A stretch of DNA of 64,000 nucleotides, from positions 2,790,001 through 2,854,000 of the forward strand of contig JAPFBE010000032.1 in the NCBI GenBank assembly GCA_034336665.1. The letters run 5' to 3'. The position numbers were made by a program, and so were the translations under genes. This DNA comes from Luscinia megarhynchos (taxonomy: Eukaryota; Chordata; Aves; Passeriformes; Turdidae). Below, in pieces: positions 11,363 through 64,000 of this stretch (position 1 is the first letter of the stretch; every line of letters begins with the position of its first letter). Under the pieces are notes generated by a model. That model was not told the DNA's origin and made no database searches. It worked only from the letters and a program-made list of their open reading frames with translations.

Positions 11363-11394
11363 TGTGGTAATTGAAGCAACTGAAATAGGAGACT

Positions 11395-12000
11395 GTACTG
11401 GGTTAGTGTTATGACTACTCCTCTCCCTGCCCCCCCCTCTCTGCCTGCACGGAGCTGCCTGCCGCCCTGGCCGTTCCTCCCCCGCCCCGGCGGGCCCCCG
11501 GCTGCTGGGCTGCTGCTGGCCTGCTGCTTTTGCTGCTGCTGCTGGCCTGCTGCTGCTGCTTTTGCTGCTGCTTTTGCCGCTTTTGCCGCCGCTTCTTCCC
11601 CTAGCTTTTGCCCCAGCTTCTCCCTCTTTCTCTCTCCCTTCTTCCCCTCATCCCGAAGATCTGCACCGGCTCTGGACGGAGGGATCTGAACATCAGAGAC
11701 TGCCTCTGGAAGCCTGCCAAAGAAGCTTTGCACCCTTCCCAGCAGGGACTGACCGAGCTCGTCCATCCTCACTCACCTTGGTGAAAACGTTTTGTGTCAT
11801 CTGGGGATTGTTCTTTCCTGGTGCTGGGAAGTGTTTTTTCTGTGTGTTTGTTAAAATAAACAAGTTTTTCCCAATTTTTTCCCTCGGAGGAAGTTCTTCC
11901 CATACCCGGTAGTGGGAGGGGGAAGGAGTTCTGGGGGTTTATTTTCCTAGGGGGACTCCTTTGGGAGATATCTCCCATAAATTTGTCCAAAACCAGGACA
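11395..12000 (+). repeat. 5' LTR of ERV-L d
   Basis: 606 bases, TGTACTGGG to CCAGGACA. It contains a run of TGC-type trinucleotide repeats (about 11505-11595), a pyrimidine-rich block, and AATAAA within TTAAAATAAACAAG near 11850-11870. The 3' copy is at 17399-18021. Confidence 0.93.
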
Positions 12001-12005
12001 AATCT

Positions 12006-12027
12006 TGGCGCCCAAAGTTAGGGGCAC
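12006..12027 (+). promoter_or_regulatory. Primer binding site, tRNA-Lys type
   Basis: TGGCGCCCAAAGTTAGGGGC lies five bases after the LTR. It resembles the tRNA-Lys(1,2) site with small differences. Confidence 0.75.
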
Positions 12028-12082
12028 GAGGAAGTGGAAAAAACTTTATTACCTTGTAACTGTGTATTGGTATAGATTTATA

Positions 12083-12757
12083 ATGTTTTTTGGGATGGAA
12101 GCTGGTATGTGGTTTTGGATACTAGGGTTTTTTGAGGTTTTAATACCTCTCTGGTCTCTGGGGTTATTTTCCTATCCGGAAATAGCTCCAGTACTGTCCC
12201 TTATTTGTAGTTTTTATACTAGAGGGATAATGACCAAAATATTTATCGGACTGGGCTTGGTTGCGATGGCTTGTAAGAGGTTTATAAAGATGCTGGAATC
12301 GGTTCCAGGGATATCTTCTGGATCCTGGTTATGGATATGCACTCAGTTTGTTAGAGGAGAAGAGGGGGAGGAAGCTTTTCAGCCTTTGCTTTCCTTTGTC
12401 TCCTTTGAATTTTTTACAACTTTATTAGAAAATGTGCAGGTTTCCCTGAATACTAAAGAGATTATCTTTCTGATGTTTAATTTAGTAAGTTTTTTATACA
12501 CTGTTTACAGTTTATATAAAATGAGAGCTGAGATTTCTAGAGGGGCTGGTGTAACTCCTGATTTAAGAGCAAAGCAAAATGTGAAGAGTCCTGAATGGTG
12601 TGAGAAATGGCAGGACCTGGGCCAAATGTTAAAGGAATTTTCTGATCCTATAGTTTGGGACTTTCCACAGGAGAAAATTCAAAACCCAGCTGAGGTGGTA
12701 AAATATTTGAAAGAGAAGTGCCATGATAACCCTAAGGAAAAAAGATCACTGCAGTGA
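12083..12757 (+). CDS. ERV-L d gag N-terminal part with membrane segments
   Basis: The open frame extends back through the primer site, but the first ATG is at 12083. The product is about 225 residues with long hydrophobic stretches: near residues 7-30 (WFWILGFFEVLIPLWSLGLF), 38-70, and about 135-155 (IIFLMFNLVSFLYTVYSLY), then a hydrophilic tail. A multi-spanning membrane region at the Gag N-terminus is unusual. The frame ends at a TGA at 12755. A frame change in the A-run near 12738-12743 probably separates it from the next segment, because the related element F reads through this join in one frame apart from stops. Function unknown. Confidence 0.6.
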   Translation: MFFGMEAGMWFWILGFFEVLIPLWSLGLFSYPEIAPVLSLICSFYTRGIMTKIFIGLGLVAMACKRFIKMLESVPGISSGSWLWICTQFVRGEEGEEAFQPLLSFVSFEFFTTLLENVQVSLNTKEIIFLMFNLVSFLYTVYSLYKMRAEISRGAGVTPDLRAKQNVKSPEWCEKWQDLGQMLKEFSDPIVWDFPQEKIQNPAEVVKYLKEKCHDNPKEKRSLQ

Positions 12758-13443
12758 GCTGGGCCCTGGCGTATGCTTATCATAGCCTGTTAGATAGTGT
12801 AGGACCACAGACAGCAGACAGGGAACACGGAGATAGATTAGTTACCACCCCAGTGACTCAGGATGTAGTAAACACTCCAGACTTGAGGACAGGGGCGAAA
12901 TTAGATAATAAGCTCCAACCAATGGCCGTGGCTACTAGCACCAGAAGTGGAAAGTGCACAAAGAAGACCGATCGGCCTGTGGATGATGATAATGAAGATG
13001 CAGGAGAAGGACCCTCAACGCCTCCTGATATAAAATCAAGAGTAAAAACAACTAGTGTGAGATCAGAGACTAATAATGAGTCCCTTTCCCTAAAGGATCT
13101 CCGTGGTCTGAGGAAGGATTATACGAGACAACCCAATGAGTCCATAATTAGTTGGCTAGTCCGGCTTTGGGATGCGGCAGGCGAGGCTACCATCCTGGAT
13201 GGCACTGAAGCGAGACACCTGGGATCCCTGTCACACGATCCTGTCATTGATCAGGGAATGATGAGGGAGGCTAACCCTCAAAGCCTCTGGGCACAGGTTT
13301 TAGACAGTGTGGCACAAAGATATCTGTGTGCCGATGACCCTATATATGCAACAAACCCGATGGAAAACCATGGAGCAAGGGATCCAACGACTAAGGGAAA
13401 TGGCAGTGGCGGGGATAATTTTTTCGTAGGATATAACAACTAG
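12754..13443 (+). CDS. ERV-L d gag middle part, capsid-like
   Basis: Open frame continuing gag after the frame change. An acidic, serine/threonine-rich linker (about 12800-13070) is followed by a helical capsid-like region (LSLKDLRGLRKDYTRQ, IISWLVRLWDAAGEAT, EARHLGSLS). The same landmarks are readable in element F. It ends at a stop at 13441, and gag continues in another frame at 13472, so there is a second frameshift around 13410-13440. The listed first codon is not an ATG; translation would come from upstream. Confidence 0.7.
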   Translation: MSWALAYAYHSLLDSVGPQTADREHGDRLVTTPVTQDVVNTPDLRTGAKLDNKLQPMAVATSTRSGKCTKKTDRPVDDDNEDAGEGPSTPPDIKSRVKTTSVRSETNNESLSLKDLRGLRKDYTRQPNESIISWLVRLWDAAGEATILDGTEARHLGSLSHDPVIDQGMMREANPQSLWAQVLDSVAQRYLCADDPIYATNPMENHGARDPTTKGNGSGGDNFFVGYNN

Positions 13444-13471
13444 GAATCCGGACCTGGTCCCATGCACACCG

Positions 13472-14053
13472 GTGATGTGGAGAAAACTTGTGCGACTCGG
13501 GCCATCTGAATACGCCTCTGCCTTAGCAATAATGAAGCGAGAAGAGGTACATGAGATAGTTCTTGATATGGCTAAGAATCTTCGAGCCTATGCGGATGCT
13601 GTGCATGGCCCAACACAAGCCAGAATCACAGCCGTGGAAACACGCTTGCAGAACTTAGAGGACAAGATAAAGGAAAATCATAAGAGGTTCAGGGAGGAGA
13701 TTAAGGAGGACCTCCTCCAAATTTCAGCAGTGCAAATTAGACATCCTGGTATCCAATGCAGACATTTCCCCGATGGGGAGAGGAGGTATACTCCTCGAGC
13801 CGAGTTGTGGCTTTTCTTGCAGGATTCTGGAGAGAACATGAGGAGATGGGATGGGAAGCCTACGGCTGCTCTGGCACAACGGGTGCGTGATCTGAAGGAA
13901 GGCAAGATTAAAAGAGGAAGTTCCGCCAAAAGGAGATCTGCTCCAGTTTCCCGTAGTCAAAATGCCAAACATGATAATGATAATGACATGTCTGACCCTC
14001 TTGAGGGAACTTCTAAGACCTATGCCCCGGAAAAGAAGAATAATCAGGCTTAG
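13472..14053 (+). CDS. ERV-L d gag C-terminal part
   Basis: 193-codon open piece: the end of a helical domain (LVRLGPSEYASALAIMKREEV), a coiled-coil-like segment (ARITAVETRLQNLEDKIKEN), then a basic tail (SAKRRSAPVSRSQNAK). I see no CCHC zinc knuckle, so nucleic-acid binding, if any, would rest on the basic tail. The stop at 14051 overlaps the start of the pol frame. Confidence 0.65.
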   Translation: MMWRKLVRLGPSEYASALAIMKREEVHEIVLDMAKNLRAYADAVHGPTQARITAVETRLQNLEDKIKENHKRFREEIKEDLLQISAVQIRHPGIQCRHFPDGERRYTPRAELWLFLQDSGENMRRWDGKPTAALAQRVRDLKEGKIKRGSSAKRRSAPVSRSQNAKHDNDNDMSDPLEGTSKTYAPEKKNNQA

Positions 14054-14092
14054 AGGGGCCCTGCCTATAGCCAGGGTGAGGCGAGGGAGAAC

Positions 14093-16283
14093 CATGTTTT
14101 TTTGGACCGTGTGGATTCGGTGGCCTGGCACTTCGAAACCACGGAAGTATAAAGCTTTAGTGGATACAGAAGCACAGTGTACGATAATTCCATCAAGATA
14201 TGTGGGGGAAGAATCCGTTTCTATTGCTGGTGTGGCAGGTGGATTGCAAGACTTTACCATAGTGGAAGCTGAAGTGAGTTTAACTGGAAAGGAGTGGAAG
14301 AAACATCTTATTGTGACTGGCCCAGAGGCCCCATGTATTTTGGGAATAGATTACCTCCGAAGTGGGTATTTTAAGGACCCAAAAGGTCTTAAGTGGGCAT
14401 TTGGAATAGCTGCTGTGATGTCAGAGCACATTCGGCAACTGAATACCTTGCCTGGACTATCTGAAAATCCAATTACTGTAAAACTTCTGAAAGGGGAAGA
14501 GCAAAGGGTACCAATTGCCACTTCAGTAGTACATCGCGGGCAATATAGGACAACTCGAGATGCTGTGATCCCCATCCATAAGATGATCCGGGAGCTAGAG
14601 AGCCAAGGGGTGGTCAGCAAAACCCACTCACCCTTCAACAGCCCCATCTGGCCTGTGCGTAAATCTGATGGAGAATGGAGGCTGACTGTGGACTACCGCG
14701 CATTGAATGAAGTCACCCCACCGCTGAGCGCTGCCGTGCCGGACATGCTGGAACTCCAGTACGAGCTAGAGTCCAAGGCAGCAAGGTGGTATGCCACCAT
14801 TGACATTGCCAATGCGTTTTTCTCCATTCCTTTGGCTGCAGAGTGCAGGCCTCAGTTTGCTTTCACCTGGAGGGGCGTGCAGTACACCTGGAACCGACTG
14901 CCCCAGGGGTGGAAACACAGTCCCACCATCTGCCATGGGCTGATCCAGGCTGCACTGGAAAAGGGTGAGGCTCCAGAACATTTGCAGTACATCGATGACA
15001 TCATTGTGTGGGGAAATACAGCAGCAGAAGTGTTTGAGAAAGGAGAGGAAATTATCCAAATCCTCCTGGAAGCCGGTTTTGCCATTAAGAAGAGTAAAGT
15101 TAAGGGACCTGCTCGTGAGATCCAGTTCCTAGGAGTGAAGTGGCAAGATGGAAGACGTCAGATTCCCACTGATGTTATTAACAAAATCACAGCTATGTCT
15201 CCACCCACTAACAAGAAAGAAACACAAGCTTTCTTGGGTGCTATAGGCTCTTGGAGAATGCACATCCCCGAGTACAGTCAGATTGTGAGCCCTCTTTACC
15301 AGGTCACTCGGAAGAAGAATGATTTCCATTGGGGCCCCGAACAACAGCAAGCCTTCGCCCAGATTAAACAAGAAATCGCCCATGCAGTAGCTCTTGGCCC
15401 AGTTAGGACAGGGCCAAATGTGAAGAATGTGCTCTACTCTGCATCTGGGAACCACGGTTTGTTTTGGAGTCTGTGGCAGAAGGTGCCTGGTGAGACTCGA
15501 GGCCGACCCCTGGGATTTTGGAGCAGAAGTTGCAGAGGATCGGAAGGCAACTATACCCCAACAGAGAAGGAAATCTTGGCTGCCTATGAGGGAGTCCAAG
15601 CCGCTTCAGAGGTGATTGGTACAGAAGCACAACTCCTCTTGGCACCCCGACTGCCAGTGCTGGGGTGGATATTCAGCAAAAAGGTTCCCTCCACCCACCA
15701 TGCCATCAGTGCCACATGGAGCAAGTGGATTGCCCTCATCACTCAGCGCTCCCGGATTGGAAAACTCAATCGCCCCAGGATTTTAGAAATAATTACAAAC
15801 TGGCCAAAAGGTGAAAGATTCAGTGTCACGGATGAGGAAGAAGAACCAGTGACCCGGGCTGAAGAAGCTCCACTGTACAACCAGCTACCGGCAGAGGAAG
15901 CACGTTACGCTCTATTCACCGACGGTTCTTGTCGCATCGTAGGGATGAACCGGAGGTGGAAAGCAGCTGTATGGAGCCCCACACGATGGGTCGCAGAGGC
16001 CACTGAAGGAGAGGGCGGATCAAGTCAGCTTGCTGAACTTAAAGCTACTGAACTGGCCCTAGACGTTGCAGAAAGAGAGAAATGGCCGAAACTCTATGTG
16101 TACACTGATTCCTGGATGGTGGCCAATGCTCTGTGGGGATGGTTGAAGAAATGGAAAGAGGCGAACTGGCAGCGCAGAGGAAAACCAATTTGGGCTGCTG
16201 AAGAATGGAAAAACATCGCTATTCGGTTAGAGAAACTACCTGTGAAAGTTCGCCATGTAGACGCCCATGTCCCCCAGAAGTAG
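14093..16283 (+). pseudogene. ERV-L d protease, RT and RNase H
   Basis: One long open frame. The protease motif reads LVDTEAQCTIIP (14160-14190), with Glu where the catalytic DTG/DTA triad normally has Gly. RT follows with the LTVDYRALNEVT and LPQGWKHSP boxes and a YIDD catalytic box at 14988-14999. RNase H has FTDGSC (about 15915), an Glu in AELKATELA, YTDSW near 16103 and HVDAH near 16254. It ends at a TAG at 16281; integrase continues in the next frame, so a frameshift separates them. RT and RNase H look intact; the protease change predicts failure to process Gag-Pol. Confidence 0.88.
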
Positions 16284-17235
16284 AGCAAATGAAGAGCAGC
16301 AAAACAATCAGCAGGTAGATCAGGCTGCAAAGATAGGGGTGTCTAAGATAGATCTTGACTGGGAGCACAAGGGAGAGTTGTTCCTAGCACGATGGGCCCA
16401 TGATGCCTCAGGCCACCAGGATAGAGATGCCACCTATAAGTGGGCACGAGACCAAGGGGTGGATCTTACCATGGACAGCATAACACAAGTTTTTCATGAC
16501 TGTGACACCTGCGCTGCCATCAAGCAGGCCAAGCGAGTGAAGCCCCTCTGGTATGGTGGACGTTGGTCCAAGTACAAGTACAGGGAGGCTTGGCAGATTC
16601 ATTACATCACACTGCCTCAGACTCGCCAGGGTAAACGTTATGTGCTGACCATGGCGGAAGCCACCACCGGCTGGTTGGCGGCCTACCCTGTGTCCCATGC
16701 TACTGCCCGCAACACCATCTTGGGCCTGGAAAAGCAGATCCTTTGGAGGCATGGTACCCCTGAGAGGATTGAGTCAGACAATGGGACTCATTTTAAGAAT
16801 AACCTTGTCAACACCTGGGCTAGGGAACATGGTATTGAGTGGGTGTACCACATCCCTTACCATGCACCAGCTGCAGGTAAAGTGGAGAGGTACAATGGAT
16901 TGTTGAAAACCACCTTGAAAGTATTGGGTGGGAGATCTTTTTAAAACTGGGAACAACATCTAGCAAAGGCTACTTGGTTAGTTAACACCAGAGGTTCCAT
17001 CAACCGAGCAGGTCCTGCCCAGTCTGACTTCCTTAATATAGTGGATGGAGATAAAGTCCCAGTGGCCCAAGTTAAAGGTTTGTTAGGAAAGGCAGTATGG
17101 GTTAATCCTGCCTCGAGTACAGGCAAACCCATTCGTGGGATTGTCTTTGCTCAAGGACCAGGATGTACGTGGTGGGTAATGCAGAAAGATGGAACAACAC
17201 GATGTGTACCTCAGGGAGATCTGATTGTGGGGTGA
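16267..17235 (+). pseudogene. ERV-L d integrase, catalytic Asp lost
   Basis: Zinc-binding part with H..H (WAHDASGH) and C..C (CDTC) near 16390-16515. The core reads WQIHYITL: codon CAT at 16600-16602 sits where the first catalytic Asp belongs. The second Asp (SDNGTHF, 16777) and the Glu (KVERYNG, about 16884) are present. A TAA at 16942-16944 stops the frame. The C-terminal part continues unbroken to 17235 (KPIRGIVFAQGPGCTWWV). Both the Asp change and the stop predict an inactive enzyme. Confidence 0.85.
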
Positions 17236-17382
17236 GAGAGAAGGAATAAAGTAAGTGTTGAAGGCCTGAGTAAGTAAAATGAGAGGAAACGTGTAAGTGT
17301 TGAAGGTCTGAGCAAGTAGATGAAAGCTTTTACATTGTATAGTGGTGTATATATCCCAATCGTGTGTCAATGTTCACGATGT

Positions 17383-17398
17383 GGGATAAGGGGTGGAA
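17383..17398 (+). promoter_or_regulatory. Polypurine tract of ERV-L d
   Basis: GGGATAAGGGGTGGAA immediately before the TG of the 3' LTR. Confidence 0.75.
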
Positions 17399-18021
17399 TG
17401 TCCTGGGTTAGTGTTATGACTACTCCTCTCCCTGCCCCCCCCTCTCTGCCTGCACGGAGCTGCCTGCCGCCCTGGCCGTTCCTCCCCCGCCCCGGCGGGC
17501 CCCCGGCTGCTGGGCTGCTGCTGGCCTGCTGCTTTTGCTGCTGCTGCTGGCCTGCTGCTGCTGCTTTTGCTGCTGCTTTTGCCGCTTTTGCCGCCGCTTC
17601 TTCCCCTAGCTTTTGCCCCAGCTTCTCCTGCCCCCAGCTGCTCCCTCTTTCTCTCTCCCTTCTTCCCCTCATCCCGAAGATCTGCACCGGCTCCGGACGG
17701 AGGGATCTGAACATCAGAGACTGCCTCTGGAAGCCTGCCAAAGAAGCTTTGCACCCTTCCCAGCAGGGACTGACCGAGCTCGTCCATCCTCACTCACCTT
17801 GGTGAAAATGTTTTGTGTCATCTGGGGATTGTTCTTTCCTGGTGCTGGGAAGTGTTTTTTCTGTGTGTTTGTTAAAATAAACAAGTTTTTCCCAATTTTT
17901 TCCCTCGGAGGAAGTTCTTCCCGAACCCGGTAGTGGGAGGGGGAAGGAGTTCTGGGGGTTTATTTTCCTAGGGGGACTCCTTTGGGAGATATCTCCCATA
18001 AATTTGTCCAAAACCAGGACA
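17399..18021 (+). repeat. 3' LTR of ERV-L d
   Basis: 623 bases, TGTCCTGGG to CCAGGACA. It equals the 5' LTR except for five substitutions and a 17-bp insertion near 17628-17645 that partly duplicates the local CAGCT-CTCC sequence. Confidence 0.93.
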
Positions 18022-19650
18022 GAGACATAAACCTGAGACCCTGGGAAACCAGGCACTGCAAAGATGCTAATTAGCTCATTCCAAAGTAAATCTTATTCCT
18101 AGCCCTGATTGTCAGTTGGACTGAGACCTTTCCCATAAAATGTCAAGCCCTTCGGGATTGGACCTTTGCCCTCAGTTATTCCCTATGTATTGTGGACTTG
18201 ATCCCTTTCCCCCAGTCTTTGGTCACTGCCTGTCCTTGGAACAACATTGCATTTGGATGCTGCTTCTCTGATACCCTGAATTAAAGGATATCTCTGGCAT
18301 ACCATCATACTTGTCCTGTTATTATTAATATTTATAGACATGCTATTACCCTGTTAAGTCAGTAAGGTTGTCGCCAGAGGAAGCCCCCCAGAACACAACA
18401 GGCCAGCAGGTTCAGGGAGGTGATTTTCCCACTCTACTCTGCCCTTGTGAGACCCCATCTGGAGTACTGCATCCAGCTCTGGGGTTCTCAGAACACAAGA
18501 AACATATTCCTGTTAGAGCAGGTCCATAGGAGGGCCTGGAAGATGATAGAAAGGCTGGAACACCTCTCCTACAAAAACATGCTGGGACCTGAGGCACTTC
18601 AGCCTGGAGAAGAGAAGACTCCATGAAGATCTAATTATGGCCTTCCAGTATATGAGGGGAGCCTACAAGAGGGCTGGAGAGGGACTTTTTACACAGGCAG
18701 ATAGTGATAGGACAAGGGGGGATGGTGTTAAAATAAAAGAGGAGAGATTTAGATTAGATGTTAGGAAGAAGCTCTTTACATTGAAGGTAGTGAGGCTTTG
18801 GAACAGGTTGCTCAGAGTTGTGGATGCCCCATCCCTGGAGCTGTTCAAAGCCAGGTTGAATCAGGGCCTGAGCAACCTGATCTAGTGGGTGGCATTGTTG
18901 TCTATGGGGAGGCCATCAGAACTAGATGATCTTTAAGGTCCCTTCCAACACAAGTTATTCTATGATTCTATACCAACTTTGTCTCCACCAGCTAACAAGA
19001 ATTAAATACAGGCTTTCCTAGGGGTTCCAGAGAATGCATATTTCAGGTTATAGTCAGCTTGCGAGCTAGAAGAAGAAGCATTTTGAGGGAGTTCTTGAGC
19101 AATAACAGGTCTTTGAGAAGATCACACCGGAAATAGATCAAGCGGTAGCTCTTGGGCCTGTCCAGACAGAACCAGACATGCAAAATACACCCTACACTGC
19201 AGCTGGAGAGCAGGGTCTTACCTGAAGCCTCTGGCAGAAAACATCAGGAGAAAATGGAGGTTTATCTCAAGGGTTTTGGATCTGGGGTTATTGAGGATCA
19301 GAAAGCCACTACACTCCAACTGGAAGAGGGATACTATTAGCATATGAGGGGCTTCAAATCACTTCAGAAGTTCTTGGTACAAACGCATATCTGCTCTTGG
19401 CACCACATTTGCCCATGCTACACTGGATGTTCAAAGGAAACATCCTTTCTATGCATCATGCAATTGATGCCACATGGACTAAGTGGGTAGTGTTGATGGT
19501 GCAATGAGCTCAAATGGGGAATCCCAACCACCCAGAAATGCTGAAAGAGCTGAAGACTGACCAGAAGGCAGTGATTTTGGAGCATTGCCTGAAGAGGTGA
19601 TACATGCCCAAGAGGCAGGTAAGGGTCGATGCAGAGTTTCCCAGATCTGC

Positions 19651-20210
19651 CTCACAACCATCCAAGATCAGAGACTGAGATGAAGGGACCCCACTGCTTT
19701 CTCTGGACAGGAGTCCTGGCCTGGCCGAGGTGGATGCTTGCCAAGGGACTGTTCTGCAGGTGTGGTTACTGCTTGCCATGGTACACTGCTCTCGAGCAGG
19801 GTACTGGCCATAGCATCCTGTTCCTGCACCTGTTTCTTGGAGCAACAGGCCTCCACACACAATAGTCCATAAATCTCCCCACCTCTTGGCCAAAGGCCAC
19901 TCGCTTTGGAAAAAGACTATAAAAAGATTACATTTTGAAGAAGACCTTTGAGATCTCCCTACGGACGGAAGACACGTCTATTGGCTGAAGACCATGAGTA
20001 CGTCGTCCCATCTGTTGGTAGCTATTCCCCACTCCCCTCTTTCTCTCTCTCTCTCTTTACTTTTTTCCTTTATATCTGTCCCCTCTATCACAAAACTCAG
20101 TTGTTGGCACTCAATAAAGTGCATTGCTGTTTGCTATTGAATAAAACTTTAGCCCCTGGTTGTTTGTCTTTTGCACCCTAAGGTCAAACAAACCATCATG
20201 ACTCCTGCTT
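19651..20210 (+). repeat. LTR-like insertion in the ERV-L relic
   Basis: Sequence that interrupts the RNase H region and looks like an LTR: a TATAAAAAG box near 19917, a CT-rich run near 20041-20058, and two AATAAA signals (20112-20117, 20140-20145). Boundaries are uncertain; a 4-bp gatc on both sides is only a weak candidate duplication. Confidence 0.5.
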
Positions 20211-20732
20211 GTGTTGAGCAGATCATGACAAGGCACAAGTCATATAAAAAGTTTTCAGAAGATGAAAACCATTATGCTCCATTTACTGATGAATCCTCTC
20301 ATATTGTAGGCAGCCATCAGAAGTAGAAAGTTACTGCGTGGAGTCCCACACCAGAAGTTGGAGTATGCAAGTTTGAAGAAATAAAAACCATCCACATGTC
20401 TAGAGAACGCTGAATGAGAAAAGTGGACATTACTCTGTTTCTATACTGACTCATGGATGGTGGCAAATGCAATGGAAGCAGGTCAACTGGCAGTGCAGAA
20501 GCAAATCCATTTGGGATCCTGCATTGTAGGAAGTTATCACTTCCCGGGTAGAAAGCATTGCTTTAAAGTTATGTCATGTAGATGCTCACATGCACAAGAG
20601 CTGTGACACTGAAGAACATCAAAACAATGAAGAGGTAGAGATAACTCTCAAAATTGAAGTAGCTCAAATGAACTTAGACTGGGAGAATAAGGGGGAGTTA
20701 TTTGTAGCTCAATGGGCCCACAAAACATCAGG

Positions 20733-21220
20733 ACATGTAGAGAACGTGGCAAGAAACACAGTGAGGTGATGGAGTATGTCCAAAGAAGGGCAATGAAGCT
20801 GATGAACGGTCTAGAAAACAAGTCCTATGAGGAGCAGCTGAGGGAACTAGGGTTGCTTAGTCTGGAGAAAAGGGGGATCAGGGAAGACTTTATTGCTCTC
20901 TACAGCTGTCTAAAAGAAGGATGTAGCCAGGTGGGCATCAGTCTCTTTTCCCAGGTAACAATTGACAATAGGAAATGGCCACAAGTTGCACCAGGGGAGG
21001 TTTAGTTGATATATTAGGGAAAATTTCTTGACAGGAAGGGTTGTCAAGCATTGGAACAGGCTGCCCAGGGAAGTGGTTGAGTAAGCATCCCTGGAGGTAT
21101 TTAAAAGATGTGTAGGTGTGGCACTTGGGGACATGGTTTAGTGAATTTGTCAGTGTTATATTAATGGTTGAACTCAATGATCTTAAAGGTCTTTTCCAGT
21201 CTAAATGATTCTGATTTCTA
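20733..21220 (+). mobile_element. CR1 3' fragment in the ERV-L relic
   Basis: 5'-truncated CR1: the ORF2 end (VQRRAMKLMNGLENKSYEEQLRELG, given in part) and a CR1-type 3' end (AATGATCTTAAAGGTCTTTTCCAG). It splits the ERV-L integrase zinc domain. Confidence 0.85.
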
Positions 21221-24779: not shown

Positions 24780-26078
24780 ATAAGGAAGGAGCATAGGAAA
24801 AGGCATTGGGGAGCAGACACCCTGTATGAACACTTAAATCAGAACATTATGGCTAGAAATTTATACACTACGGTGAAGCAGGTAACTCGACTCTGCCTCC
24901 AGACTAATCCTAAAAATACTTCAAAGCCAGAAATGTGTCAAATTGGGAAGAGGAATGTACATGGCCAATTATGGCAAATAGACTTCACAGAACTCCCAAG
25001 AAAAGGGGGGTTTCGTTATTTACTGGTATTAACCAGTACCTTTTCAGGATGGCCTGAGGCTTTCCCTACTAGAACTGCTAAGGCCCGAGAAGTGGTCAAG
25101 GTATTAGTTAAAGAGATAATGCCATGATTTGGGGTTCCAGCTGCCAGTTCTTCAGATAGAGGGCCTCATTTTATTGCAGAGGTGGTACAGCAGGTTAGTA
25201 GTACTTTGGTGTTGTATCGCATTGTTATACACTGTTATTGTTTTATATTGCACTGAGAAAGTGGCTTGTACTGTATCCCCCCGGAGTTTTCGGAAGTTGG
25301 TTCATCCCTCCCTTAGCCCCTCCCTGCTGGCCAACCCCATTGGCTGCAACTCGGTTTCCCCCTCCCCTCACCCTAGGTTTGAAATTCCCCGCCATCCCTT
25401 TGTTCGCTCTCTCTGTCCTTGGACATGCTTCAGGAATGAAGTGCTGGACGTTTTCCTGGGACTGAGAACCTCTTTTTGGGTTTTTACCTTTGTCCATGAG
25501 GATTTTCTTTTCATCTCTGGTCCGGAGCTAGCCAAGGCACCGGAGAAAGGAAAGGGTACAACCTCACTTTGGGTATAGATTGGCAATTACATACCCCATA
25601 TCATCCCCAGTCAAGTGGATAAGTGGAGAAGATGAACAATTTAATCAAACAGCAAATTGTGAAATTAGGACAGGACGCCAATCTGCCTTGGCCTCAATCC
25701 CTTTGTTTAGCCCTTTTATGCATACAAACTAGACCAAGGGCAAAGGAAAAACTGAGTCCTTTTGAGATCCTGTATGGGCAACCTTATGCAATACAGAAGG
25801 GAACATCAGTACAAGTATGGGAAGAAACTACAACAGAATACATGGTCGCCCTGAGGAAGCAACTCAGTAATATCAGGAAACATGTATTAGGAAGCCGGTG
25901 TAGGGGACTGGATGGGCCAGTACATAATGTGCAACCTGGAGATTATGTATATGTAAAATCTAGTGCAGAAAAGACTTTGGAACCACAGTGGGAAGGACCA
26001 TACCAGGTACTCCCCACCTCCTTCACTGTCATCAAGATCAGAGAGCAAGCGGCATGGACACATCACACTAGGATTTAG
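24780..26078 (+). pseudogene. ERV i integrase, split by a solo LTR
   Basis: HHCC region near 24800-24960, then the core WQIDFTELP (about 24975), SDRGPHFIAEVVQQ near 25150, the solo LTR at 25210-25566, and resumption at LGIDWQLHTPYHPQSSG with a TAA at 25619-25621, followed by EKMNNLIKQQ and a C-terminal domain (VQPGDYVYVKS, WEGPYQVL) to 26078. The three catalytic acidic residues D, D and E are still encoded. Confidence 0.83.
25210..25566 (+). mobile_element. Solo LTR in ERV i integrase
   Basis: 357 bases, TGTTGTATCG to TACAACCTCA, with a perfect 6-bp duplication ctttgg (25204-25209 and 25567-25572). Removing it restores the coding phase of the surrounding integrase relic. A CCAAT-like box is near 25336. 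No clear AATAAA, so orientation rests on weak cues. Confidence 0.88.
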
Positions 26079-26128: not shown

Positions 26129-28320
26129 GTGGCTCTCACAATCATAGTTATGGCCATGGTTACAACAGACATCAGTGCAAGAACTTCTATATACAATGTG
26201 ACTGGCATTTATATTTGTCAGGGAAAAGCTTGTGACTTTAACTCTTGTAGGTCTCTCTGGCAGGTGCTAAAAGTCACAAATGCAACTATCTGGACAAGGA
26301 GAGATGTCTGGGGATGCAAATTTGCATTTGTTCAGGAGAGATTCCATCAGGGACCTATAAAACCCATTTGAATTGGTACTGAATGTTGTGGCACATGCTT
26401 AACTAACTGTTCTGAATTCAGGCTTAAAATAGAGGGATGTGAAACCAAGGCTTTTAGAATTGATTACAATATATCTCAAGTTTGTGTTAACCCTCAGAAT
26501 GATAAGAGTAGGGCAACCTTACCAACACAGACACTAAAAATTCAGACCACACCTCAAACCACACTTCTTCAGATCCCAAAAGAAACAATTCAACCCTTAA
26601 TCACCAAGATTGGGCCTTATGCTATTAAAAAGACAGGGATCCAAAGGCTATTGCTCAATCCAGAGAGGTCCCTAAAGCGAGTAGAGATGGCAATGCAGGT
26701 GTGTTGGTTTCACGTGCTGGGGAGAAAGGGTGGATTCGCCTCAGGGACAGCTCCAGGAGGCTGGGGAGTGGGAGGGACTCTCTCGTCTCTGGGAGCTTCC
26801 CCTGTGAGCCGCTGGTACCAATCAGAGAGCTGATTTGGTGATGGACAGCTCGGGAAACCAATGAAAAGATATTTCGCTTTCACAAATCACAGTGGATCAA
26901 GTTAACTGCTCTGTCTTTCGGTTTCCGGCTGCCAGGGGGTGAGGTGGCCTCTGGCCAGGGCACTGACCATGGCCCGGCTTCGAGCTCAGCGGGGGGAGCC
27001 CAGCCTGGCACGGCCCGGCAGCATGGTCCCAGCCCCCCGGCCCCCCCTGACTGCATGGGTCCGGGCGGCCCCGGCCCGGGCCTGGTGGCCCCTGGCATCG
27101 GCTGCATGGCCCCGGCACCGGCTGCATGGCTCTGGCACCGGCTCCACATGGCCCCGGCACTGGCCGGCTCGGCTTGACTCGCCTCTCCACGTGGCAGAAA
27201 AGGCCTCCAGCTGCCCATGTGGTTTGCTTCACGATCTGGATACAATTTTAACTTCTTAATGCCTGGATAAGATTCTTGATCTCCTGAGCTCCCCTGAATG
27301 AGAAGAAATGAAGCATGGAGACTACAGAGGTCAGCGGAATGAAGATAAAGTTCCTGGTGGGAAGAGATTGAAAAGATGCAACTGATAAGTAGCTGAAAAC
27401 CTTTTTTGTGGGCTAAGGGGATTGTGACTACACTAAAATTCCTTTAAACTGTGAAATATACTTGGGGAAGTTTGGATGCTTGTGTAGAAGACTTTTTGCC
27501 TCGGGGAAATGAAGCTCTCTCTGTTCTGGGACAGGAATATGAACAGAGACATTTGATAGAGAAGGAGATGAAGAGAATTTTGTTTTTCAGCAGCCTGCCT
27601 TTAAAAGTGGTTCCCCAAGTGTGTAACATAACCCATAGCACAGCTCTGGAAGGACTGTGAAAAAGTGAGAGGAGAGTCACAATCTGCAGTATTTTCATGG
27701 GTGGATGTAGATTGTGAAAGTGAAGACACCCCCTAAGCCATAACTAAAAAAGGAACTTTTCTCTCAAGTGAACTGAAATGATTATTTGGATGGATAACTG
27801 ACTGAAGTGTTCTCTGTATGTTGTTGGTAAGAAATGTGGAATGAAGGGAGAGGGAACAATCTAGGAATCTTATTCTGAAATTTTTTTTGTGTTATTAATA
27901 AATTTCTTCTTGTACCTTTTTAAGTTTTGAGCCTGCCTTGTCTCTATTCCTAAATCCTATCTCTAAAAGAAATTAAATATACTAAAATTGGCAAAACTCA
28001 AGTCACACCGTGACAGCAGGCAAATGCCTCTGTCATTCGACCAGAATGTGCTCCATTCCTTAAGACTTCTTTTATGGAATGGACCACTTGGTTGCAGGAG
28101 TGTGCACCATATACACTCAAATGAAAAAGAGACCTTACAGGAATATTTGGAACAGGATTAGGGGTCTTAAACACAGTGGACTCAGAGGTTTTAATAAACA
28201 AATTGTCTGCAGCTCGTAATGACATAGTTGAATTAAAGCGACCTTTACAATCATCGTTTCCCTCCCACTGCCATGCTTCTCCCTACCTTTGCTACCCAAA
28301 CACCGCTCTGTATTCCCAAA
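26129..28320 (+). pseudogene. ERV i env remnant, split by an LTR
   Basis: A surface-like piece (26129-26690) has several cysteines and NVT/NAT sequons. After the LTR, TM starts near 28120 with a basic KRDLTG then GIFGTGLGVLNTVDSEVL, a fusion-peptide-like segment, and a heptad region (INKLSAARNDIVELK). Stops interrupt every frame. I see no CX6CC because the sequence decays after 28260. Confidence 0.7.
26700..28015 (+). mobile_element. 1.3-kb solo LTR in ERV i env
   Basis: 1316 bases, TGTGTTGGTTTCACG to CACCGTGACA, with a perfect 5-bp duplication gcagg (26695-26699 and 28016-28020). The 5' third is GC-rich (26930-27180). AATAAATTTC near 27898 is the polyadenylation signal. A second copy lies inverted at 63187-64000. 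Confidence 0.9.
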
Positions 28321-28714: not shown

Positions 28715-29040
28715 TGTGAAGATCCAAAAATAAGTTTTCCCAGCTAAGAATTGTAACCCCTGTTCTCTTCCCTAAGCCCTCTCACTGTCTGTTAACCCTT
28801 AGGTCACTCCCACCCTAATTCCCTGTTGGTCTTTTACTCTAGCCCACCCCTGTGTAATTTAGTAATTGGTCCCTGGGGCTTTCCCCGCCCTGCTTATCCC
28901 ATGTACTTTAGCCTGGACCCTCGGAGCTCCGGGGCCTTTGTTCCCTGAAACCCAAACCATGCGTGGCTGAAATAAACATCTTAAAACCCTGCAAAGGCCT
29001 TCCTGCTCTTTCACCCCCAAGCAACATCCTAAAAGCAACA
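28715..29040 (+). repeat. 3' LTR of ERV i
   Basis: About 326 bases, TGTGAAGATCC to a CAACA end (29025 or 29040). It contains AATAAA in GAAATAAACATC near 28968-28975. The only LTR found for this element. Confidence 0.75.
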
Positions 29041-31041
29041 TATACTTATATTCGGACTACTGTTTTTTATACTACAGGGGGTTTACTTGGTTTGTTTGAT
29101 GGTAGTACACATTTTCAGTTATGGATAATTTGAGAAATACTGTTTATGGTTAGATTTATTTTTGGTTTGCTATTTACTTATAGGTGGCATTTTTGCCCTG
29201 ATGACTTGAAGCATCATGGGCTTATTAAGTTAGGAATAACTTTTTTTGTGTGTGTTGTTAATTTAAGTTTATTTTTGGCACTTTTATTTGTGTAGTTTGA
29301 TTTACTTGTTTGTTGTTTTGGTGTTTTTTATTAGTTTTACTTTTGGGGACATGGGCATTTACATGACGGACTTTTATAGGTAGCTTTTTTTGAGTGGTAA
29401 TGTTTTTTTATTATTAGTAGTTCAGATTGGGGTTTTTATGTTGCTAGTTAGCTTTTTTTACATTCTTAGTCAATTTTACAGATCATTGATTACTATTTAT
29501 GATTTGGTGTAAAGGTAGACTTTTCGTTACTTTTGTTAGTAATGTTTAGGGTTAGATGAACAGCTTTGAGTTTAGTAAGTTGACTTGATTTACTTTTTTT
29601 TTAGTAGTTTGCGTAACTTGTTGTGTGAGGTTTTATACAGTTGCTTTTTACTTTTGGGTTATTTTTATAATGTGACAGGAGTTATTACTAAAAAGTGTGT
29701 AGTGTGTTTTATTTGTTGGTAGTTCGTTATATGGTGGGGTTTTTTTAGCACGTTACATGTTTTGGGTTTTTTTTTTAGTGAGATTAAAGTTTTTACTCTT
29801 GGGCTAATTTGTAATTATTTTTAAAACTTCAGGGCAATTTAATTTTTTAATATGGGAGTGTTGTGTGATGAGGGGAATTTATTTGCTTTATGTGGCGTTG
29901 GTGGCATGGTGGCTAGAGGGAACTTTTACTTTGAACATTTATTTTAGCACTGGTATCCAGGGTGCCAAGACGAGTTGTGGTTTTATGCTAATTATTTTTG
30001 AAGCAGCTTGAACTTTTTTATAGGTAGCTAAATTTTTTTTTTTGTGGGAGTGTAGTTGGTTTTGGATTTTTTTAATTTTGACTTTAAAATTTTAATGGCT
30101 GACTTTGAGTTTTATTAGGCACTTTTTGCTAAAGGCTTTAGGACAGACTATGGCTTTTGGCGGTAGAGTAGAGCATATTTTTTACATTTGGTTTTGTTTG
30201 GATTGGATTAAGGGCTACTGTATGAGTGATTTCTCGTTTGATTTGGGTGAAGGCTTGTTGTTGTTTAGGGTTCTAGTGGAAATCGGCTTTTTTGCAGGTG
30301 ACCAGGTAAAGAGGGCTTACAATTTGGCTGTATTCAGGAATGTGTGTTTTTTAAAAACTTCTGGCACTTAAGAAAGTTTGTGGGGATTTTTTGTTGGTTG
30401 GTGAAGACATTGCGGTTATTTTATTGATGACTTTAGTGGGAATTTGACACTGTTCGTTTTGTTACTTTACTTTTAGGAACTGGATTTTTTGGGCATGTTT
30501 TTTGACTTTGCTTTTTTGATGGCAAAACTAGTTTTTAGGAGAATTTGGATGATTTTTTTTCTTTTTTTAAATACTTTTGCTGATGTGTTTTCTTACACAA
30601 TTATATTATTGATGTACTGTAAATGTTTTGGAGTTTTACTTTTTTTAGTGCAGCTTGGATTAGTTTATGGCAGATGGTGGGGCTGTGTTTTTATTTCTGA
30701 GGCAGTTGGTTCTAGGTGTACTGCACACTTTTTTAGGTGAAAGCAAACTGTGGCTTGTACTTTGCTGCCAGAGGAATGTAGAAAAATATATTTGTAATGT
30801 TAATGGTGGTGTACTACTTTGTTGCTTTGGACTTTAGTTCATACTGGAGTTCTAGCATGTTTGTCACGGCAGCGCTTAGCGGTGGAGTTATTTTATTTAA
30901 GGCACAATAGCTTACAGTTAATCTTTATTTTTTATCAGACTTGTGCACAGGCCAGATGGGGCTGTTGGTGAGTGGGTTTTACTGACTACATCTTGGTTTT
31001 CTAGTTCACAGATTTATTTTTTTTTATTATTTTTTTTTGGT
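29041..31041 (-). mobile_element. Hypermutated ERV-L pol segment, minus strand
   Basis: About 2 kb aligning by eye with the reverse complement of ERV-L d pol, from the integrase zinc domain (29180-29290 with d 16320-16440) to the RT N-terminus (30940-31010 with d 14580-14680). The plus strand is very poor in C but not G: 3 C and 11 G in 29281-29340, 4 C and 17 G in 29701-29760. In a 120-base hand alignment with d 15301-15420, 19 of 30 C read T, against 4 of 32 G reading A. On the coding strand this is G-to-A. Both flanks have normal composition. No open coding frame survives. Confidence 0.85.
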
Positions 31042-31604
31042 AGATGTAGATTGAGTTTTGGATGGATACCTGGCTGTAAACTGCCAAGCCTTTGGTTAAC
31101 AAAGGGCACAAAAATTGATGGGCCCAGCCAGGTGAATGGACGCTGAGAGACACAGCAGGAGCTGGGAACTGCCAACCTTTTGCATAAGAAAGGGCATGAA
31201 AAATGGTGGTACCAGTGAGGTGGATGGACACTAAGACACAGCAGGGGCAGAAGACTCAGGAGGAAGAGCAAGACTTGTGTGTGATTAGACTGTAAGGATA
31301 TAAAAGCCAGAGGTTTCTTTGTTGGGAGTCCCTCCTTGGAGGCACCAGCTCGGGCTGTTTCTGTGTTACTGCACTGTGAAAATATGGCTTTATGGAACAC
31401 GATATCTGAGGCTCTGCTCTGGGAAACTTGGGGTTGAACCAATAAGGAAACCTGGTCTGACTGTGTGTGAGTGGGATGTGGAGGGAGCCACACTCACTGG
31501 AGCCACACACTTGTGAAGGGGTTCCAGTCCCAGCAGTTAAAATCTCTGGCACTGGGAGTGTGACTGCCAGTGAATTGCTTGAATGGTCAGACTGGGAAGT
31601 TTGC
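31042..31604 (+). repeat. LTR-like sequence with an 85-bp tandem pair
   Basis: Unclassified repeat with a TATAAAAG box near 31296. Two similar units of about 85 bases (about 31078-31162 and 31163-31250) share AACTGCCAA, AAAGGGCA, GAATGGAC/GGATGGAC and ACACAGCAGG. I cannot fix its ends or a target duplication. Confidence 0.5.
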
Positions 31605-63186: not shown

Positions 63187-64000
63187 TGTCACAGTGTGAC
63201 TTGGGTTTGGCCAATTTTAATATATTTAATTTTCTTTTAGAGATAGGATTTAGGAATAGAGACAAGGCAGGCTCAAAACCTAAAAAGATACAAGAAGAAA
63301 TTTATTAATAACACAAAAAAAAACCATTCAGAATAAGATTCCTAGATTGTTCCCTCTCCCTTCATTCCATATTTCTTACCAACAACATACAGAGAACACT
63401 TCAGTCAGTTATCCATCCAAATAATCACTTCAGTTCACATAAGAGAGAAAAGTTCCTTTTTTAGTTATGGCTTAGGGGGTGTCTTCACTTTCACAATCTA
63501 CATCCACCCATGAAAATACTGCAGATTATGACTCTCCTCTCACTTTTTCACAGTCCTTCCAGAGCTGTGCTATGGGTTATGTTACACACTTGGGGAACCA
63601 CTTTTAAAGGCAGGCTGCTGAAAAACAAAATTCTCTTCATCTCCTTCTCTATCAAATGTCTCTGTTCATATTCCAGTCCCAGAAGTGAGAGAGCTCCATT
63701 TCCCGAGGCAAAAAGTCTTCTACTTAAGCATCCAAACTTCCCCAAGTATATTTCACAGTTTAAAGGAATTTTAGTGTAGTCACAATCCCCTTAGCCCACA
63801 AAAAAGGTTTTCAGCTACTTATCAGTTGCATCTTTTCAATCTCTTCCCACCAGGAACTTTATCTTCATTCCACTGACCTCTGTAGTCTCCATGCTTCATT
63901 TCTTCTTATTCACGGAAGCTCAGGAGATCGAGAATCTTATCCAGGCATTAAGAAGTTAAAATTGCATCCAGCTCGTGAAGCAAAATACATGGGGAGCTGG
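63187..64000 (-). mobile_element. 1.3-kb-type LTR, minus strand, cut by window end
   Basis: Reverse-complement copy of the 3' two thirds of the LTR at 26700-28015: starts TGTCACAGTGTGACTTGGGT, includes AATAAATTTC (minus) near 63298-63308 and the GGAAGTTTGGATGCTT segment near 63725. The rest lies beyond 64000. Confidence 0.88.

Follow-up and report, generated by a model that had tools for sequence, protein, structure and literature searches.

A pol fragment of an endogenous retrovirus in Luscinia megarhynchos with one-strand G-to-A hypermutation, probably of the APOBEC type

The window analysed here, which is the whole 64,000-nucleotide stretch of contig JAPFBE010000032.1 from Luscinia megarhynchos, contains about 2 kb of a retroviral pol gene in which C has been replaced by T on one strand only. 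This fragment very probably descends from a retroviral DNA copy that was edited by an APOBEC-type cytidine deaminase on its single-stranded minus-strand cDNA, the rest of the copy having been lost later. The C-to-T changes affect one strand, lie mainly on the branch of the fragment, follow a YC context, turn tryptophan codons into stops, end sharply at both edges, and are graded in density along the fragment. We infer that the editing took place in cDNA in one round, and that loss of the remaining provirus came afterwards. A first-pass annotation of the same DNA had proposed editing of this kind, and the strand bias, the context, the stops, and the spared flanks all speak in its favour. As a possible course of events, an APOBEC-type deaminase would have attacked the minus-strand cDNA while it was single-stranded during reverse transcription, and the uracils would have been copied as A into the viral plus (coding) strand. 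The edited DNA would then have been fixed in the germ line, and a later deletion or rearrangement would have left the surviving part of pol beside the LTR of a gammaretrovirus. The features concerned are listed in Table 1.

Table 1. Features of the window, with positions counted from its first letter.
Feature	Position	Strand	Basis or remark
Reference provirus d	11391..18021	+	LTRs 11391-12000 and 17396-18021, 96.5% identical
pol pieces of provirus d	13896-16280 and 16261-16941 (with Pfam matches); 16945-17232 (without)	+	Pfam
Older broken relative of d; outgroup and unedited control	18974..20800 (pieces 18974-19600 and 20226-20800)	+	Alignment to d
3' LTR of ERV i, a gammaretrovirus-like element, preceded by a purine tract; unedited left neighbour	28715..29040	+	Ends by eye
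Hypermutated retroviral pol fragment (RT, RNase H, part ahead of the integrase core)	29043..31020	- (coding strand)	BLAST homology to d 14580-16580
T-rich, C-free stretch (0 C, 11 G) that continues the composition of the fragment and aligns poorly to d	31021..31066		Composition
Unedited right neighbour	31067..31366		Composition normal from 31067

Provirus d, the reference for the counts, has a pol with matches to RVT_1, RNase_H, and rve. Two of its ORFs in the gag position are without a Pfam match, and about 160 bp separate the last pol ORF from the 3' LTR. The pol ORF is 795 aa long and free of stops. The first-pass annotation had called the family ERV-L, a name that refers to a primer binding site for tRNA-Leu. 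By eye, the stretch TTGGCGCCCAAAG a short way downstream of the 5' LTR of d looks like a Lys-type site, which does not agree with the L of the name; ERV-L is not proved as a name for this provirus. A scan of IMG/VR gave no relative.

The domains of the fragment were assigned by position in provirus d. Since pol of d reads on the plus strand and the fragment aligns antisense to it, the coding strand of the fragment is the minus strand, and a C-to-T change on the plus strand is therefore a G-to-A change on the coding strand. The fragment is 87.4% identical to d when C and T are merged and 69.4% identical when four letters are used on the same alignment. No LTR or gag belonging to the edited copy was recognised.

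With d as reference, C-to-T changes outnumber T-to-C changes by 369 to 22 over 1,970 aligned pairs (binomial p 2e-82); on the other strand, the same pairs hold 63 G-to-A and 49 A-to-G changes (p 0.22). Among the 550 C of d, 369 read T in the fragment, 155 were kept, and 26 read A or G, and C-to-T accounts for 61% of all mismatches (369/603). These main counts are from the alignment with C and T merged. A looser alignment reaches 31097 (2,041 pairs, many gaps), and its poorly alignable tail was left out of the counts. Six settings were compared: the alphabet was left at four letters, reduced by merging C with T, or reduced by merging G with A, and two mismatch penalties were applied in each case. 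Overall they gave 322-369 C-to-T, 11-22 T-to-C, 58-71 G-to-A, and 48-53 A-to-G changes, with 322-352 C-to-T and 11-17 T-to-C when the alignment was four-letter or G/A-merged. An alignment artefact is rejected, since the asymmetry was kept by all three kinds of alignment at both penalties. The one-way G-to-A change of the coding strand, claimed at first pass from short samples, therefore holds for the whole fragment, and counting per strand against both d and the older copy in the window gave a one-sided excess on a single strand only. The samples themselves were exact: 3 C and 11 G at 29281-29340, 4 C and 17 G at 29701-29760, and, against d 15301-15420, 19 of 30 C reading T and 4 of 32 G reading A.

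The density of C-to-T changes is 187 per kb over 2 kb, measured against d, which is not the parent of the fragment. Since differences other than C/T exchanges amount to 6-13% of sites per 500 bp, some of the 369 changes are ordinary drift. The drift-corrected density is roughly 150-176 per kb, when either the 13.5% seen for G-to-A (63/468 G) or the 22 T-to-C changes are subtracted, d again standing in for the true parent.

Base composition sets the fragment apart from the DNA on either side. C/(C+T) is 0.17 inside it, 0.54 at 28716-29041, and 0.48 at 31067-31366, so that the neighbours are of normal base use, as had been noted at first pass, and C loss continuing into the flanks was not found. 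The left value was measured over 28716-29041 for the ERV i LTR, the right end of which could also be near 29026. Two 2-kb subwindows inside the fragment give values of -1.50 and -1.59 for the log ratio log2[(C/(C+T))/(G/(G+A))], which outside has a mean of -0.05, an sd of 0.14, and a minimum of -0.43 (581 overlapping 2-kb subwindows); at this scale the fragment is about 10 sd off the mean of the outside. The best composition segment is 29061-31067, and the C/T-merged BLAST homology to d is 29043-31020. The 46-base tract at 31021-31066 was probably once in the edited molecule and rearranged later. A 13-bp tandem repeat at 31014-31038 overlaps this tract, and an 88-bp tandem repeat with two copies (31079-31245) is found near the right edge of the fragment. 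At the other side, where the ERV i LTR meets the fragment (29019-29041), the 9-bp sequence AAGCAACAT is present as a direct repeat at 29019 and again at 29033. The left edge may be due to a later insertion of ERV i, in which case it is no test of editing, and the right edge is the better test.

Other pieces of the edited provirus were sought within the window. A strict C/T-merged self-search (E up to 1e-30), restricted to matches with a clear C-to-T excess, matched the fragment only with d and with the old copy. A lenient C/T-merged search with the two ends of d gave, among the matches listed, many of low complexity at 64-86%.

The direction of change can be read from the older copy, the two pieces of which are 67% and 69% identical to d. 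At 1,064 three-way sites, the fragment branch shows C-to-T in 140 of 189 cases and T-to-C in 10 of 234, together with G-to-A in 14 of 144 and A-to-G in 16 of 157. The outgroup and the fragment both read T where d reads C at 46 three-way sites, which reflects either parallel change or a gain in d. A direct comparison of the fragment with the old copy, without d, gave 100 C-to-T, 18 T-to-C, 25 G-to-A, and 36 A-to-G changes in 599 pairs.

Protein homologues gave a second view of direction. Fragment and d differ at 227 amino acids, stops counted; 130 of these differences follow from coding G-to-A alone, 41 are without G-to-A, and 56 are mixed. The majority residue, defined as that shared by half or more of the homologues covering a position, is carried by d in 120 and by the fragment in 6 of the 130 G-to-A-only changes, although the homologues are the listed 120 of 1,087 hits retrieved with d as query, a choice that favours d as majority. 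The corresponding numbers are 27 for d and 9 for the fragment among the 41 changes without G-to-A, and 43 and 3 among the 56 mixed changes. Taken with the outgroup, these 120 sequences show that the changes belong mainly to the fragment rather than to d. Those of the 120 listed (out of 1,087) that carry a name are birds; passerines are the closest (Oenanthe 92%, Hirundo and Corvus 90%), and others, such as Grus, Patagioenas, and Amazona, are near 80%. The best of these 120 shares 11 of the 41 changes without G-to-A, so that no closer relative of the fragment was singled out among them.

The context of editing was determined for the 524 of 550 C that read C or T in the fragment (the 26 reading A or G were dropped), with the neighbouring bases taken from d and not from the lost parent. 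The edited fraction is 149/162 for TC, 128/147 for CC, 63/124 for GC, and 29/91 for AC, and this order was unchanged across all six alignment settings. In a logistic fit the -1 base outweighs every other term by a wide margin, and no +1 base has a clear effect. If editing is treated as a rate process, the relative rates from -ln(1 - edited fraction) are about 6.6 for TC, 5.3 for CC, 1.8 for GC, and 1 for AC. The dinucleotide check proposed at first pass thus shows a strong dependence on the preceding base, with YC far above RC and an excess at CpG absent. An APOBEC with a YC preference fits this context.

One-strand C-to-T change can also arise when chromosomal DNA is deaminated after insertion, for instance by an AID-like enzyme acting where transcription or an R-loop exposes one strand, and the context alone is compatible with a non-AID enzyme working on chromosomal DNA. 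AID, as characterised in PMC5391955, favours WRC and spares SYC. In the fragment, WRC is the colder class, with 59 of 113 sites edited versus 310 of 411 in other contexts, and the SYC cold spot is heavily edited (120/138); AID-like targeting is therefore judged unlikely. The sharp edges on both sides also argue against deamination in the chromosome, with the reservation that the left neighbour may be a later arrival. Overall, it is very unlikely that the changes were made in chromosomal DNA, and editing of the minus-strand cDNA is preferred.

The effect on tryptophan codons bears on another alternative. Of the 28 such codons in d, 26 are now stops, one is still Trp, and one reads Gln, and all 26 stops among the 548 comparable codons fall at Trp codons of d. 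The fragment could in principle have inherited an A-rich composition from its retroviral lineage, as in lentiviruses, and living retroviruses with A-rich coding strands do exist (PMC3511177). A load of 26 stops at 28 Trp codons would hardly be tolerated in a replicating lineage, and the fragment is otherwise near d (12.6% difference with C and T merged, gaps included), so that inherited composition is highly improbable.

The older copy also serves as an unedited control. Over 1,080 sites in a four-letter comparison with d, it shows ratios of 67:35 and 60:30 on the two strands, and its changes are without an excess at TC or CC (TC 14/79, CC 21/75, GC 20/66, AC 12/37). With C and T merged, its first piece gives 49:36 for C/T and 41:22 for G/A against d; its second piece gives 55 C-to-T and 27 T-to-C with 30 G-to-A and 12 A-to-G, both ratios being about 2. 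These control counts indicate that merging C and T somewhat inflates the C/T pairs of a divergent copy, but to nowhere near 369:22. Ordinary decay of methylated CpG with age, through which C and G have both been depleted in the control as compared with d, has a practically negligible chance of explaining the fragment, since in the control it is about equal on both strands, unlike in the fragment, and since CpG was edited in 34 of 51 cases versus 335 of 473 for other C (p 0.52).

The editing is graded along the fragment. Starting at the integrase side and ending at the RT side, successive 500-bp segments have 106/138, 100/128, 87/125, and 76/133 sites edited, that is, from 77-78% down to 57%. 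The position effect has z = -4.2 once context is fitted, and none of 5,000 context-stratified permutations (0/5,000) was equally steep. In the general model, the part of the minus strand that corresponds to the 3' end of pol is synthesised early and stays uncovered longest, and a rise there fits this model. Differences other than C/T are likewise fewer in the final 500 bp (0.063 versus 0.11-0.13; position correlation p 0.015), and part of the gradient may therefore be local closeness to d. The gradient runs in the direction expected of minus-strand cDNA editing but, with the background falling too and only 2 kb surviving, it is suggestive. Editing gradients in HIV-1 peak 5' to the two polypurine tracts (PMC12548423).

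The first-pass annotation had referred to reports of strong APOBEC-type editing of ERVs in songbirds. This stands for the zebra finch, but in the medium ground finch the effect is much more limited, according to PMC6523648. The zebra finch elements TguERVl1_I-int and TguLTRK1_1 have 71.5 and 57.2 changes per kb over 5,486 and 6,173 bp (Knisbacher and Levanon 2016, as given in Table 3 of PMC12548423). The fragment resembles these ultra-edited ERVs in its songbird host, in being from an ERV internal region, and in its clustered coding-strand G-to-A changes attributed to APOBEC. It differs in its higher density, which was measured over 2 kb with a more distant reference, and in the coding-strand G-to-A share of its mismatches, 61% as opposed to 80-83% in the zebra finch ERVs. 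Table 3 of PMC12548423 has ten rows, comprising highly edited ERVs and one HIV-1, with a maximum of 120.8 per kb for mouse Mtv21; other rows include HIV-1 VAU with 72.8 and a zebra finch ERVL with 71.5. The 187 per kb of the fragment exceeds all ten rows, over 2 kb only and with a reference that is more distant and not its true parent.

Mtv21 is like the fragment in that its coding strand is depleted of G and its flanks are without the pattern, and each of the 36 unique stops counted across 12 full-length Mtvs replaces a Trp codon, as stated in PMC12548423. In contrast, Mtv21 is a full 7.9-kb provirus whose editing its authors assign to mouse Apobec3, and the fragment is a partial copy in a bird. 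Editing of L1 in lizards is similar in that there, too, retroelements of a non-mammal underwent G-to-A change, for which A1 was put forward as the enzyme; unlike the fragment, it concerns LINE elements, and lizard LTR elements are described as not edited in PMC3880073, where a term search of the text found no cytosine context motif. For ERV editing in birds, the matches listed in the literature search contained the zebra finch and medium ground finch work and a mention in PMC6497032, and none beyond these. Since damage of this kind has been described before in a songbird, the fragment is an extreme example of it, not a new phenomenon.

The preference for both TC and CC resembles the TYC preference with which mouse APOBEC3 is listed in PMC5391955. 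APOBEC3 is described as specific to eutherian mammals in PMC5399452. Lizard A1 is a DNA mutator and the zebra finch carries an A1 homologue (PMC3880073), so that APOBEC1 is the natural candidate, although in the lizard it was L1 and not LTR elements that were edited. Given editing on minus-strand cDNA, the editor was probably, though with considerable room for doubt, bird APOBEC1. A further-reaching proposal, possible but rather doubtful, is that in a bird lineage without APOBEC3 a deaminase with a joint TC and CC preference edited about 90% of YC sites in one pass; this would then be the densest case of ERV hypermutation on record, also when measured against the true parent. The fragment preserves the attack of a deaminase on a bird ERV cleanly and close to saturation. 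From it the cytosine context preferred by the enzyme can be read, in animals that are taken to lack APOBEC3, and this profile could be matched to that of a purified bird enzyme.

A second LTR of ERV i, the left neighbour of the fragment, was not found within the window. The element has a match to MLVIN_C (the MLV-type integrase end) within 25623-26075. A pair of inverted repeats of about 810 bases, 95.8% identical, lies at 27207-28015 and 63187-64000; within ERV i, one arm is flanked by the integrase end on one side and the 3' LTR on the other, and the second arm reaches the last base of the window.
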